Assembly (NCBI RefSeq): GCF_023556315.2 | Contig: NZ_CP116221.1 | Coordinates: 310,001-374,000, forward strand | Length of the DNA: 64,000 bases | DNA from: Psychroserpens ponticola | GTDB lineage: Bacteria > Bacteroidota > Bacteroidia > Flavobacteriales > Flavobacteriaceae | Direction of reading: 5' to 3' | Part shown: positions 27,238-31,502 of the stretch, piece by piece | Layout: every line of letters begins with the position of its first letter | How positions within the stretch are numbered: the stretch's first letter is position 1 | Position numbers and translations under genes: made by a program | Notes under the pieces: generated by a model | What the model was told of the DNA's origin: nothing | Databases searched by the model: none | What the model saw: the letters and a program-made list of their open reading frames with translations, nothing else

Positions 27238-27267
27238 TTTGATTTACTAAAATAATAATTACATTAG
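27238..27267 (+). promoter_or_regulatory. Probable promoter of the pheA leader
   Basis: TTTG (27238-27241), an 18-nt spacer, then TACATTAG (27260-27267) matches TTTG-N18-TAnnTTTG with one mismatch. The same spacing occurs in two other promoters in this window. It would start RNA near 27274, about 9 nt before the leader-peptide ATG. Confidence 0.5.
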
Positions 27268-27282
27268 CAACATATTAATAAC

Positions 27283-27336
27283 ATGAATACACTAAATTTT
27301 GCATATTATAACTGGTTTTATTTCTTTTTTAGCTAA
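27283..27336 (+). CDS. Aromatic-rich leader peptide of the pheA operon
   Basis: An ATG opens a 17-codon frame reading MNTLNFAYYNWFYFFFS, then TAA. Nine of 17 residues are aromatic: five Phe, three Tyr and one Trp, ending in a run W-F-Y-F-F-F. It lies upstream of genes for prephenate dehydratase, prephenate dehydrogenase and DAHP synthase, and upstream of a hairpin-plus-T terminator. This is the arrangement of ribosome-stalling attenuation known from pheL in E. coli. A shortage of charged tRNA-Phe or tRNA-Tyr would stall the ribosome here and could favour read-through. No family match is claimed; the call rests on composition and position. Confidence 0.75.
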   Translation: MNTLNFAYYNWFYFFFS

Positions 27337-27342
27337 AAGATA

Positions 27343-27389
27343 GAGGCGTTATATGTATAATTTACAACAATAAATTTAATATGAGTCTC
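27343..27389 (+). promoter_or_regulatory. Candidate antiterminator pairing
   Basis: GAGGC (27343-27347) can pair with GTCTC (27385-27389, one G-U), and ATAT (27351-27354) with ATAT (27379-27382). This would sequester the 5' arm of the terminator. The same 5' region (GTTATATG, 27348-27355) can instead pair with the leader codons CATATTATAAC (27302-27312). The pairings were found by eye and are weak, so this is a proposal only. Confidence 0.35.
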
Positions 27390-27411
27390 GATGAAAATCG
27401 AGACTTTTTTT
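27384..27411 (+). terminator. Attenuator terminator at the pheA start
   Basis: AGTCTCGAT (27384-27392), loop GAAA, ATCGAGACT (27397-27405), then seven T. This is a perfect 9-bp tetraloop hairpin with a T tract that ends exactly at the base before the pheA ATG at 27412. No gene ends nearby on the plus strand, so its natural role is premature termination of the leader RNA. Confidence 0.88.
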
Positions 27412-28239
27412 ATGATAAAAACTGTAGCCATACAAGGAGTTAAAGGATCATTTCATCACATTGTGTCACAGCAGTTTTTTGATAAGACGATTGATGTTTC
27501 AGAATATTTAACATTTGATGGTGTTGTAGATAGCATTATGAATGCTAAAAATGATGCTGCTATTATGGCGATTGAGAATTCTATTGCTGGTTCTATCATT
27601 CCTAATTACGCATTAATTGATAATTTTGGTTTGCATATAGTTGGTGAACATTATTTAGATATTCAGCATCATTTAATGGCCTTGCCAAATCAAACCATTG
27701 AGGACATTAAAGAAGTGTATTCTCATCCAATGGCATTGTTACAATGTAAAGCGTTTTTTAAGAAATTTCCACATATAAAATTAATTGAAGATAAAGATAC
27801 AGCTGAAGTAGCGCAACGCATTCAAGCTAACCAATTAAAAAATGTTGCTGCTATTGCATCAAGATTAGCTTCTGAGTTATTTCAACTTCAAATTTTGTCG
27901 GAAAGCATACAAACGATAAAGCATAATGAGACACGGTTTTTTATCGTAAAAACTAAAAATTCTGAAATACCAGAAATAGAAATTAATAAAGCGTCTATAA
28001 AATTTGAATTAGACCATAAAAGAGGAAGTTTAGCGACTATTTTGAATGTATTAAGTGATTGTAAGTTAAATTTAACCAAGATACAATCGCTTCCGAAAAT
28101 TGAAACACCTTGGAAATATGCTTTTTTTGTTGATGTCACTTTTGATGCATATAGCGATTATATTAAGGCGAAGTCTATCATGAAAATCATGGCACAAGAT
28201 TTTAAAGTACTAGGAGAATATAAAAATGCAAGACTATGA
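27412..28239 (+). CDS. pheA: Prephenate dehydratase
   Basis: This 275-residue enzyme converts prephenate to phenylpyruvate. The catalytic Thr-Arg-Phe is in NETRFFIV (about residue 174), and a C-terminal ACT domain follows (KRGSLATILNVLSDCKLNLTKI, then TPWKYAFFVDV). There is no fused chorismate mutase; that activity is on the last gene of the operon. The ACT ligand motifs usually written GALV and ESRP read GSLA and QSLP here. The ATG at 27412 starts IKTVAIQGVKGS. An in-frame ATG at 27391 lies inside the terminator hairpin and would add seven residues. The gene overlaps the next by 4 nt. Confidence 0.92.
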   Translation: MIKTVAIQGVKGSFHHIVSQQFFDKTIDVSEYLTFDGVVDSIMNAKNDAAIMAIENSIAGSIIPNYALIDNFGLHIVGEHYLDIQHHLMALPNQTIEDIKEVYSHPMALLQCKAFFKKFPHIKLIEDKDTAEVAQRIQANQLKNVAAIASRLASELFQLQILSESIQTIKHNETRFFIVKTKNSEIPEIEINKASIKFELDHKRGSLATILNVLSDCKLNLTKIQSLPKIETPWKYAFFVDVTFDAYSDYIKAKSIMKIMAQDFKVLGEYKNARL

Positions 28240-29381
28240 TACAGATTGCTGATCGATTAAAAAATGTTGAAGAATATTATTTCTCAAAGAAATTGAGAGA
28301 AGTAAATCTGCTCAAAGCTCAAGGGAAACCGATTATCAATTTAGGAATTGGAAGCCCAGATTTAAATCCGCCAGAACGTGTTCTCAATGCATTGGTTGAA
28401 ATCTTTAATGAAGATGGAGCTCATAAATATCAAAGTTATAAAGGCATTCCAGAATTTAGAGAAGCTATTACAGATTTTTATAAACGACATTTTAACGTGC
28501 CTCTAAGCCCGTTAACAGAAGTCTTGCCTTTAATGGGAAGTAAAGAAGGGATTTTACACATTTCTATGGCATTTTTAAATGAAGGTGATGAGGTGTTAAT
28601 TCCTAATCCAGGTTATCCAACATACAAATCAGTTACTAATTTAGTAGGCGCAAAACCTGTGTTTTACGATTTAACAGAAGAAAATAATTGGTCTCCAGAT
28701 TTTATAGCCTTAGAGAAAAAGGACCTTAAAAAAGTAAAATTAATGTGGATTAATTATCCGCACATGCCAACAGGAGCTCAAGCAACTAATAAATTATTTG
28801 AAGATTTAATAACTTTTGCTAAACGTCATAATATATTAATAGTAAATGACAATCCTTACAGTTTTATTTTAAATCGTTACCCAAGAAGTATTTTAAAATA
28901 TCGAGATGCTAAAGATGTGTGTCTAGAGTTAAATTCTTTAAGTAAAACATTCAATATGTCTGGCTGGAGAGTTGGAATGTTATTAGGTAAAACCGAATAT
29001 ATTGATGCCGTTTTACGTGTTAAAAGTAATATGGATTCTGGGATGTTTTTAGGAATTCAAAAAGGCGCAATTGAAGCTTTAAACTGTTCTGATATGTGGT
29101 ACCTTAGTCTCAATAGCGTATATGAACAACGTCGACAAATCGTATGGAAAATTGCAGAAGCACTTAAATGTACTTACGATACAAATGCAGCAGGATTATT
29201 TGTTTGGTGCAAACTTCCTGATTATATAGATGCTGAAGAATATATCGATTTGATACTGAAAGAAAAGTCAGTGTTTATTACTCCAGGAACAATTTTTGGA
29301 ACTAACGGAAAAGGCTACATAAGAATATCGCTTTGTGCACCTCAAGATCAATTAGAAGAAGCCTTAGCAAGATTGAAATAA
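28236..29381 (+). CDS. Aminotransferase of the Phe/Tyr operon
   Basis: A 381-residue class I aminotransferase whose ATG overlaps the pheA stop (ATGA). PLP lysine is in LNSLSKTFNMSGWRVGMLLG. Other family marks are NLGIGSPDLNPPERV near the N-terminus, NPGYPTY, and YPHMPTGAQ where most relatives have NPTG. Its place between prephenate dehydratase and prephenate dehydrogenase suggests it makes phenylalanine and tyrosine from phenylpyruvate and 4-hydroxyphenylpyruvate. By sequence alone it also resembles aspartate or LL-diaminopimelate aminotransferases. Confidence 0.85.
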   Translation: MIQIADRLKNVEEYYFSKKLREVNLLKAQGKPIINLGIGSPDLNPPERVLNALVEIFNEDGAHKYQSYKGIPEFREAITDFYKRHFNVPLSPLTEVLPLMGSKEGILHISMAFLNEGDEVLIPNPGYPTYKSVTNLVGAKPVFYDLTEENNWSPDFIALEKKDLKKVKLMWINYPHMPTGAQATNKLFEDLITFAKRHNILIVNDNPYSFILNRYPRSILKYRDAKDVCLELNSLSKTFNMSGWRVGMLLGKTEYIDAVLRVKSNMDSGMFLGIQKGAIEALNCSDMWYLSLNSVYEQRRQIVWKIAEALKCTYDTNAAGLFVWCKLPDYIDAEEYIDLILKEKSVFITPGTIFGTNGKGYIRISLCAPQDQLEEALARLK

Positions 29382-29383
29382 AA

Positions 29384-30235
29384 ATGAATAATATATATAT
29401 CATAGGAGTTGGGTTAATTGGAGGAAGTATGGCTTTAGATATCAAGTCTAAGAATAAACATGCTAAAATCTTCGGAATAGATACTAAAATGTCTCACTTA
29501 GAAGACGCCTTAGAACGCAATCTTATTGATGAAAAAGCAACATATGCAGATTTAAAATCAGCCGATTTAGTAGTGCTGTCTATTCCAGTTGATAAAGCAG
29601 TTTTAGAATTGCCAAAAGTGTTAGATGTAATTTCAGATTCAACCTTAGTTATAGACGTTGGTTCTACTAAAGGTCCAGTTTGCAAAGCTGTTGAAAATCA
29701 TAAAAAGCGTCGTAATTTTTTAGCAACGCATCCCATTGCTGGTACTGAATTTTCTGGTCCAAAAGCTGCTATTCATCAATTGTTTCAGAAGAAAACTAAT
29801 ATTATTTGTGAAGTAGAAAAAACAGCATTTAAGCTTCAAGAGAAAGCTTTGCAGTTGTTTTCAGACTTAGGAATGCGTATTCGGTATATGAATTCAGAAG
29901 CTCATGATAAACACATCGCTTACGTGTCACATTTATCACATATAAGTTCTTTTATGCTAGGAAAAACAGTCATTGAAAAAGAAAAAAATGAACGCGATAT
30001 TTTTGATATGGCTGGAAGTGGTTTTGAAAGTACAGTGCGTTTAGCAAAAAGTTCACCAGCTATGTGGACACCAATATTCAAACAGAATAGAGAGAATGTA
30101 ATTGAGACTCTTGATGAATATATCAATAATTTAAAACAGTTTAAATCATTGATGGAATCTGACGATTTCGAAGAGATATTTAAGGAAATGCAAAATACAA
30201 ATCATATAAAAGACATATTAAAAGGAATTGCTTAA
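29384..30235 (+). CDS. tyrA: Prephenate dehydrogenase
   Basis: A 283-residue enzyme that oxidatively decarboxylates prephenate to 4-hydroxyphenylpyruvate. The NAD-binding Rossmann loop is at the very start (NIYIIGVGLIGGSMALDIK). Catalytic-region segments include ATHPIAGTEFSGP and MNSEAHDKHIAYVSHLSHI, with both conserved histidines. The ATG at 29384 puts the Rossmann strand at the N-terminus; a start further upstream in the same frame would overlap the aminotransferase by about 50 nt and add an unrelated segment. There is no C-terminal ACT domain. Confidence 0.93.
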   Translation: MNNIYIIGVGLIGGSMALDIKSKNKHAKIFGIDTKMSHLEDALERNLIDEKATYADLKSADLVVLSIPVDKAVLELPKVLDVISDSTLVIDVGSTKGPVCKAVENHKKRRNFLATHPIAGTEFSGPKAAIHQLFQKKTNIICEVEKTAFKLQEKALQLFSDLGMRIRYMNSEAHDKHIAYVSHLSHISSFMLGKTVIEKEKNERDIFDMAGSGFESTVRLAKSSPAMWTPIFKQNRENVIETLDEYINNLKQFKSLMESDDFEEIFKEMQNTNHIKDILKGIA

Positions 30236-30243
30236 TAAAGATT

Positions 30244-31326
30244 ATGGAAAATAAAAAAGAAATGAGAACATGGTTAGATGATTTAGGATTAAATCATCCT
30301 CTAGTAATTGCTGGACCATGCAGTGCAGAAACCGAAGAACAAGTTTTAAAAATAGCGAACGAGCTTAAAAACACAGATGTAAATTATTACAGAGCTGGCA
30401 TTTGGAAACCTAGAACACGTCCAGGAAATTTTGAAGGTGTTGGTGCTTTAGGTTTAAAATGGTTGCAAAAAGTTAAAGCAGAAACAGGATTAAAAACAGC
30501 AACAGAAGTAGCCAATAGAAATCATGTTGAACTTGCTTTAGAACATGATATTGATCTATTATGGATTGGTGCAAGATCTACTGTGAGCCCATTTATAATG
30601 CAAGAAATTGCTGATGCTTTAAAAGGTACAGACAAGGTTGTACTCGTGAAAAATCCAGTAAATCCAGATTTGGCTTTATGGTTAGGCGGCATCGAAAGAT
30701 TGCATACAGCAGGAATAAAAAACTTAGGAGCCATACACAGAGGTTTTTCTACATATGAGAAATCTAAATATAGAAATATTCCTGAATGGCAACTTGCTAT
30801 TGAATTTCAAAATAGATTTCCAGATTTGCCATTAATTAATGATCCATCACATATAACTGGAAAACGTGATATGATTTTTGATGTATCTCAAACGGCATTG
30901 GATCTTAATTTTGACGGCTTAATGATTGAGACTCATACAACTCCAGAAAAAGCATGGAGTGATGCTGCTCAACAAGTCACACCAGAACATTTGGTGCAGA
31001 TTATGACGGATTTGAGAATTAGAAAAGAAACAGATCCTGAAGCAGAATATAATAGCGAACTTAATAATTTAAGAGCTCAAATTGATGTTGTAGATAATCA
31101 ACTTATTGAGTTATTAGGCAAACGAATGAAAGTAGCCGATGGCATTGGTCAGCTTAAAAAACAAAAGAACGTTGCTGTATTACAAAGCAAACGTTGGAAT
31201 GAGATTTTAGGAAAAATGGTTCTCGAAGGTGATGAAAAAGGACTCAGTGAAGAGTTTATTTTACGCATGTTTAAAGCCATTCACCAAGAATCGATTAATC
31301 ACCAAGAAAAGATTATTAATCATTAA
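30244..31326 (+). CDS. DAHP synthase / chorismate mutase fusion
   Basis: A bifunctional 360-residue protein. Residues about 1-255 form a DAHP synthase barrel (LVIAGPCSAETEEQV, YYRAGIWKPRTRPGNFEG, INDPSHITGKRD, LMIETHTTPEKAWSDA). Residues about 270-355 form an AroQ-type chorismate mutase (NNLRAQIDVVDNQLIELLGKR, then the Lys-rich helix and FKAIHQESINHQ). It provides the first step of the shikimate pathway and the chorismate-to-prephenate step feeding pheA and tyrA. It is the last gene of the operon and is followed by a terminator. The mutase domain may also serve as the allosteric sensor, as reported for similar fusions. Confidence 0.94.
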   Translation: MENKKEMRTWLDDLGLNHPLVIAGPCSAETEEQVLKIANELKNTDVNYYRAGIWKPRTRPGNFEGVGALGLKWLQKVKAETGLKTATEVANRNHVELALEHDIDLLWIGARSTVSPFIMQEIADALKGTDKVVLVKNPVNPDLALWLGGIERLHTAGIKNLGAIHRGFSTYEKSKYRNIPEWQLAIEFQNRFPDLPLINDPSHITGKRDMIFDVSQTALDLNFDGLMIETHTTPEKAWSDAAQQVTPEHLVQIMTDLRIRKETDPEAEYNSELNNLRAQIDVVDNQLIELLGKRMKVADGIGQLKKQKNVAVLQSKRWNEILGKMVLEGDEKGLSEEFILRMFKAIHQESINHQEKIINH

Positions 31327-31358: not shown

Positions 31359-31431
31359 GTCTTCGCTAATATTTTGTTTTAATGGCATGCATGTTGCTTC
31401 TAGAAAAGCAATTAGATTATAGACTGTAACA

Positions 31432-31461
31432 TTTGTAAAGTCAATTAAAAGTCTATTTTTG
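31432..31461 (+). promoter_or_regulatory. Promoter of the secreted protein at 31503
   Basis: TTTG (31432-31435), 18 nt, then TATTTTTG (31454-31461). This is an exact match to the Bacteroidota TTTG-N18-TAnnTTTG pattern, and the ATG follows 41 nt later. Confidence 0.65.
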
Positions 31462-31502
31462 TTAACTAAAGAATTTTCAACAACAACAAGATTACTCAAC
31501 TT

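Follow-up and report, generated by a model that had tools for sequence, protein, structure and literature searches.

Organization of the pheA Leader and Operon

The pheA gene of Psychroserpens ponticola is preceded by a short leader that very probably acts as a ribosome-mediated transcription attenuator of an operon for aromatic amino acid synthesis. The locus lies in a 64,000-nucleotide (nt) stretch of DNA (RefSeq assembly GCF_023556315.2, contig NZ_CP116221.1, positions 310,001 to 374,000 of the forward strand), referred to here as the window, and all features of the leader and operon are on its forward strand. A promoter-like pair of the Bacteroidota −33/−7 type, TTTG-N18-TACATTAG, occupies positions 27238–27267; direct reading places TTTG at 27238–27241, followed by an 18-nt spacer and TACATTAG at 27260–27267. 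In the window, this sequence is a consensus match only, and it would place the start of transcription a few nt 5′ of the leader ATG. The leader open reading frame (ORF), MNTLNFAYYNWFYFFFS plus a stop codon, spans 27283–27336 (ATG at 27283, TAA at 27334–27336), and nine of its 17 codons specify aromatic residues (five Phe, three Tyr, and one Trp). An intrinsic terminator, assigned from sequence and fold, occupies 27383–27411 and consists of strand 3, a GAAA loop, strand 4, and seven T. Its hairpin, AGTCTCGAT-GAAA-ATCGAGACT (27384–27405), has nine perfect pairs between 27384–27392 and 27397–27405, the T-run covers 27405–27411, and the pheA ATG follows directly at 27412–27414, 75 nt from the leader stop. 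A first-pass annotation, made from the sequence alone, had described the promoter-like pair, ORF, hairpin, and T-run, all of which were confirmed to the base. Absent from that annotation were the antiterminator strand and the shortness of the leader, which has 8 codons fewer than the 25 usual among relatives because TAA follows FFFS.

The operon begins with pheA (prephenate dehydratase, 27412–28239; NCBIfam NF008865, E 3.5e-57, under that family's curated cutoff), followed by a pyridoxal-phosphate (PLP) aminotransferase (28236–29381; 69 families match, and the 25 listed are aminotransferases or related PLP enzymes, all below cutoff). It continues with tyrA (prephenate dehydrogenase, 29381–30235; NF006307), the only one of the four genes to pass a curated NCBIfam cutoff, and ends with a DAHP synthase fused to chorismate mutase (30244–31326), for which both kinds of family match below their cutoffs. 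A search of the genome returned two PF00793 proteins, the operon DAHP synthase and a KDO8P synthase, and no PF01474 protein. The operon therefore carries the sole DAHP synthase detected in this genome, on which the synthesis of Trp should rely too.

Mutually Exclusive Predicted Folds of the Leader

The terminator folded alone has an energy of −13.9 kcal/mol, which none of 200 shuffles equals (z −4.9). It is the only terminator-like site between 26500 and 28500; because a scan of this region expects 0.7 such sites by chance, the weight of the assignment rests on the fold and its conservation. The competing structure uses strand 2, GAGGC (27343–27347), which pairs with GTCTC (27385–27389), the terminator's own 5′ arm (strand 3). 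Upper helices within 27349–27384 extend this pairing, with UUAUAU (27349–27354) opposite AUAUGA (27379–27384) and AAUUUA (27359–27364) opposite UAAAUU (27371–27376). When most of the 3′ arm of the terminator is omitted, this antiterminator folds at −11.7 kcal/mol, a value equaled by 4 of 200 shuffles. Both alternative structures are thus present as predicted folds, and they are mutually exclusive because each uses strand 3. As in leader-peptide attenuators, a short ORF rich in codons for the products of the operon is followed by an intrinsic terminator ahead of the first gene, and the antiterminator takes up the 5′ arm of that terminator while its second arm lies close to those codons.

A possible strand 1 lies within the aromatic codons (27316–27328) and pairs with 27335–27345 in the minimum-free-energy fold, where it would occupy strand 2. 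Phe codons are nearly fixed at synonymous sites among the close relatives (TTTTATTTCTTTTTT), which would fit such a 1:2 hairpin and would equally fit avoidance of a long T-run.

Conservation among Close Relatives

The element was compared in the best 80 of 427 relatives of pheA from a scan of genome contigs, which carry the names Psychroserpens, Gelidibacter, Algibacter, Tamlana, and other Flavobacteriaceae. A profile built from 61 of these loci, picked by a pattern, finds the element 5′ of pheA in 80/80 (locus L030 reaches only from a contig edge). It is also found in 23/23 genomes of the genus, the window's own included; among the other 22, 16 share their stretch with one of the 80 loci. The leader is conserved as a reading frame: after prior exclusion of L028, which has no ATG, and L030, which is cut, the frame has an ATG within 45 nt and stays open across the aromatic run in 79/79 loci, whereas neither of the other two frames does so in any. 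In 80 loci made up of the window's own and 79 relatives, a TAnnTT[AT]G box precedes the leader ATG by no more than 45 nt in 76 and by 9–19 nt in 75 of these, so transcripts probably start only a few nt 5′ of the leader. Relatives keep both the small ORF and its bias toward Phe and Tyr, the loss of which had been named in the first-pass annotation as evidence to the contrary.

Pairing was counted in 86 aligned sequences, 80 of them distinct. All cells of the terminator helix are paired in the 80 distinct sequences, and the whole 2:3 structure is paired in 92.7% of cells versus 26–55% with slid partners, a comparison that favors the real version since the structure was taken from the window's own fold. 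Further pair types in the 2:3 structure number 22, as compared to 16.4 in shuffles, and none of 500 shuffles reaches that count. The antiterminator closes in the fold of 86/86 sequences, 84 by script plus L061 and L081, which were counted once an additional hit of the scripted pattern farther upstream had been discounted.

The first-pass annotation had also suggested that the terminator hides the pheA start codon from ribosomes. This arrangement is not conserved: the gap between the T-run and pheA is at most 5 nt in 37/80 loci and ranges from 0 to 514 nt over the 80, counted up to where the PheA match begins, sometimes not at the true start codon. Occlusion of the start codon was therefore rejected as a general device. 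As a separate observation, three Gelidibacter loci (L019, L024, and L025) contain repeated units of ~80–130 nt, sized by eye, between terminator and pheA. These units bear GC-rich hairpins (e.g., ATCCCGC..GCGGGAT), and their number varies among the three loci.

Joint Variation of Strands 2, 3, and 4

Strands 2, 3, and 4 vary jointly from lineage to lineage: strand 2 is similar to strand 4, and each of the two fits strand 3 despite differing letters, as in GAGAC/GTCTC, GGGAC/GTCCC, AGGAC/GTCCT, and GAGCGGTC/GACCGCTC. In 76 diverse loci, the best helix that strand 3 forms with its own leader scores 18.1 on average, as compared to 13.38 with the leaders of other loci; the permuted means have a standard deviation (SD) of 0.30 and reach at most 14.47 in 2000 permutations. 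With a score of 8, L191 is probably a spurious member of this set. Kinship among the loci improves the permuted fits and so lowers the contrast, and it also means that the 76 represent fewer independent events.

The end of the leader ORF keeps a regular position relative to strand 2. Measured from the first base of strand 2 in the 79 loci having both positions, the leader stop is 15 nt downstream in 68, 6–9 nt downstream in 3, and 3–9 nt upstream in 8, including the window; the ORF therefore extends into strand 2 in 71/79. A ribosome finishing the leader would sit on or beside strand 2.

Amino Acids That the Leader May Read

We infer which amino acids count for the response from the codons of the leaders. 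The first-pass annotation proposed that Phe, Tyr, and perhaps Trp are sensed together. Codons for Phe and Tyr occur in 76/76 diverse leaders. Trp codons are common and not universal (64/80 close loci, 37/76 diverse loci). Synonymous codons are mixed (TTT 272, TTC 139, TAT 169, TAC 90, TGG 38). The presence of the only DAHP synthase in the operon would make Trp sensing sensible, although this is not proven. A DAHP synthase lies downstream of pheA in 77/80 loci, and the remaining three are a short stretch of the window's own locus (in the window, the DAHP synthase is at 30244), L029, and L040. Because L029 and L040 end before or near the expected start of the DAHP synthase, these counts offer no contrast for a link between Trp codons and DAHP synthase.

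Range over the Phylum

A covariance model of the element matches 176 of 299 genomes of the family at E ≤ 1e-3, some of them close to the sequences from which the model was built. In a sample of 40 genomes, 20 with model matches (19 with best E values of 5e-7 to 4e-4, plus G192, whose second match is weak) and 20 without, pheA was found in 32 (19/20 matched, 13/20 unmatched). The match lies 13–96 nt 5′ of pheA in the 15 genomes having both positions. An aromatic leader and terminator are present in 28/30 upstream regions read, including 9/11 from unmatched genomes, so that 176 is probably a lower bound.

The wider survey used a rule of at least five F/Y/W in 10 codons with a terminator 20–120 nt further on, which is satisfied by 76 of the 107 regions upstream of pheA that were chosen across the phylum. 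Control stretches satisfy it in 0/550 cases (462-nt stretches elsewhere in the window, on either strand) and 4/980 cases (relatives' loci, away from pheA). At least seven aromatics in 10 codons occur in 73 of the 76 rule-meeting leaders and in none of the control stretches. Within the same family, 44/46 regions satisfy the rule. Other families of the order give f40 2/2, f41 1/1, f45 3/3, f51 2/3, f48 0/1, f52 0/4, and f2 0/7; those of the same class give f3 5/5, f4 5/5, f5 5/5, f8 3/6, and f9 2/2. In other classes, the counts are f27 1/1, f33 1/1, f15 1/3, and f18 1/2, and none of 10 regions from f29, f20, f22, f12, f16, and f11 is positive. A looser TAnnTTNG box is found in 61/76 diverse loci, as compared to 12% in mononucleotide shuffles. 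The f52 genome L223 still has an ORF, MNRTPYYYYFFIELV..., which may be a relic.

Proposed Mechanism and Alternatives

The dense aromatic ORF and terminator over the phylum, together with a fit of strand 3 to its own strand 2 beyond that seen on permutation, support ribosome-mediated transcription attenuation of the pheA–aminotransferase–tyrA–DAHP synthase/chorismate mutase operon. The first-pass proposal of an attenuator that senses aromatic amino acids ahead of a Phe/Tyr operon thus finds strong comparative support. In the proposed mechanism, transcription would begin just 5′ of the leader ORF. When charged tRNAs for Phe, Tyr, or (here) Trp run short, the ribosome would stall in the aromatic run, leaving strand 2 (GAGGC) free to pair with strand 3 (GTCTC) and form the upper helices. 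This pairing would block the terminator and allow the operon to be transcribed. When the tRNAs are charged, the ribosome would instead reach the leader stop and cover strand 2, whereupon strands 3 and 4 would pair and transcription in cells would stop just ahead of pheA.

Several observations weigh against this assignment. The 2:3 core in the window has only five pairs, one of them G-U. The region inside the closing helix of the antiterminator folds only ~1 SD better than mononucleotide shuffles (mean of 86 sequences), and the leader minus its terminator is unremarkable in stability (z −0.4, equaled by 63/200 shuffles). Two-sided changes in antiterminator pairs are few in the close set (5 pairs, 7 cells); slid versions show 4–6 pairs and 5–15 two-sided cells, and 64/500 shuffles match the real cell count, so co-variation inside this set is modest. 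Of the alternative pairings that had been suggested, 2:3, 3:4, and 1:2 all fold in the window, but pair counts do not clearly set the 1:2 hairpin of classical attenuators apart from its slid versions (80.3% paired versus 61.8–78.0%). As to range, the rule finds no element in 31 of the 107 regions, including all seven from f2, a family of the same order whose PheA is only ~30% identical, and all four from 0.6-Mb genomes of f52 (L223, L176, L177, and L181), which nevertheless retain pheA. Finally, no pheA could be detected in G296, a genome that the model matches weakly.

The leader could instead act through its nascent peptide, as an arrest peptide such as TnaC that binds a free aromatic amino acid, rather than through codon starvation. 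Close relatives strongly conserve a YTYxNWFYFFFSxKxETLYV-type peptide, non-aromatic residues included; part of this conservation overlaps strand 2, however, and may reflect a constraint on the RNA. What is kept across the phylum is only the dense F/Y run, with its position before strand 2, while flanking residues vary freely, and the mixture of synonymous codons likewise speaks against a peptide effect, which we regard as unlikely. Still less probable is that the ORF mainly boosts pheA translation by reinitiation and that the hairpin is a constitutive partial terminator. Reinitiation at leader genes has been proposed, with a Bacteroidetes peak at 11–14 bp in the part of that study bearing on it (PMC4833913), but the leader stop lies much farther from pheA in the window and the terminator–pheA gap is variable. 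Reinitiation also predicts neither an aromatic bias nor matching among strands 2, 3, and 4. Riboswitches usually consist of a structured leader with a terminator at its end, and the ORF might be fortuitous in an RNA that binds a ligand (riboswitch) or a tRNA (T-box). Conservation of the reading frame speaks against this, and no Rfam family matches the element at threshold, the matches there being far below it, which makes this explanation extremely improbable.

Ribosome-mediated attenuation allows a broader proposal, which we offer tentatively and consider rather doubtful as a whole. The element may be an ancient attenuator present throughout the phylum, in which one codon run pools the supply of Phe, Tyr, and often Trp, with the ribosome loading without a Shine-Dalgarno sequence on an almost leaderless transcript and itself covering strand 2, with no separate 1:2 hairpin. 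It would set an operon with the only DAHP synthase, and so the supply of all three aromatics. If true, transcription and translation would be tightly coupled in Bacteroidota.

Neighboring Features and Other Leaders

Upstream of the element, a gene on the opposite strand runs from 27132; from its motifs, we take it to be ABC-transporter-ATPase-like. A second R1 match in the window, at 31372–31477, is weak (21.5 bits, E 0.058). The only Rfam match at gathering level in the window is an S-adenosylmethionine (SAM) riboswitch (RF00162, 15545–15668, 71.8 bits), which sits just before a gene cluster, presumably for methionine synthesis. Among ATG-started ORFs of 8–45 codons upstream of ilvD (2070–2295; ilvD ORF start at 2296), no Ile/Leu/Val leader was found. 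We take ilvD to be the first gene of an Ile/Val/Leu cluster, the control of which may differ from leader attenuation.

Elsewhere in the same genome, L226 contains a leader ORF, MNTNLNITWWWISRNSNFVS, with WWW, ~180 nt ahead of a match to PF04715 (anthranilate-synthase type) and with a strong terminator by eye; it is probably a Trp attenuator. L224 contains a leader ORF, MTFIQLHHHFHTSAQAR, with HHHFH, upstream of hisG and with a terminator by eye; it is probably a His attenuator. Both leaders count in favor of the attenuator proposed for pheA.

Comparison with Known Systems

The first-pass annotation knew of no such element in flavobacteria, but one has in part been reported. Structured 5′ elements before pheA and hisG were described in 2021 in Flavobacterium psychrophilum and are present in other Flavobacteriaceae; the passages concerned also give strong clues of leader-peptide attenuation at amino acid operons (PMC9723704). 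The section of that paper on 5′ cis-regulatory RNAs gives no pheA peptide, alternative pairing, or range past the family. Leader-like small ORFs are described in Bacteroides thetaiotaomicron, in passages that do not name pheA (PMC7366714), and attenuation of his genes is treated in general terms in the relevant part of another paper (PMC8305728). Our literature search, largely without subscription papers, returned no account of the peptide encoded ahead of pheA, of the competing pairings, or of a distribution over the whole phylum. The comparative data make a well-supported case for an attenuator that is ordinary in logic, widely conserved, and partly reported earlier.

Leader-peptide attenuation is best known in Proteobacteria, where pheL of enterobacteria encodes a Phe-rich leader peptide followed by alternative antiterminator and terminator structures before pheA. 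The present element resembles pheL (Rfam RF01859) in these respects. At 13.7 bits in the window against a gathering threshold of 55, it is not a member of the Phe_leader family; sub-threshold matches of 30.8–31.8 bits occur at 3 of 12 Flavobacteriaceae loci searched. Unlike pheL, the leader is also Tyr-rich and often Trp-rich, its ORF runs into strand 2 in most loci, and the operon includes tyrA and a DAHP synthase. The host differs as well, in that mRNAs of this phylum are described as lacking Shine-Dalgarno sequences (PMC6847099). A conserved attenuator in Bacteroidota, with such mRNAs, would offer a simple test of transcription–translation coupling there, and it predicts how aromatic amino acid synthesis is controlled in a large bacterial group. 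The trp and his leader attenuators, with probable examples in this genome (WWW and HHHFH), follow the same logic, each being rich in one amino acid, whereas the pheA leader combines Phe, Tyr, and, in many species, Trp codons in one run. A single element that reads all three together would be unusual.
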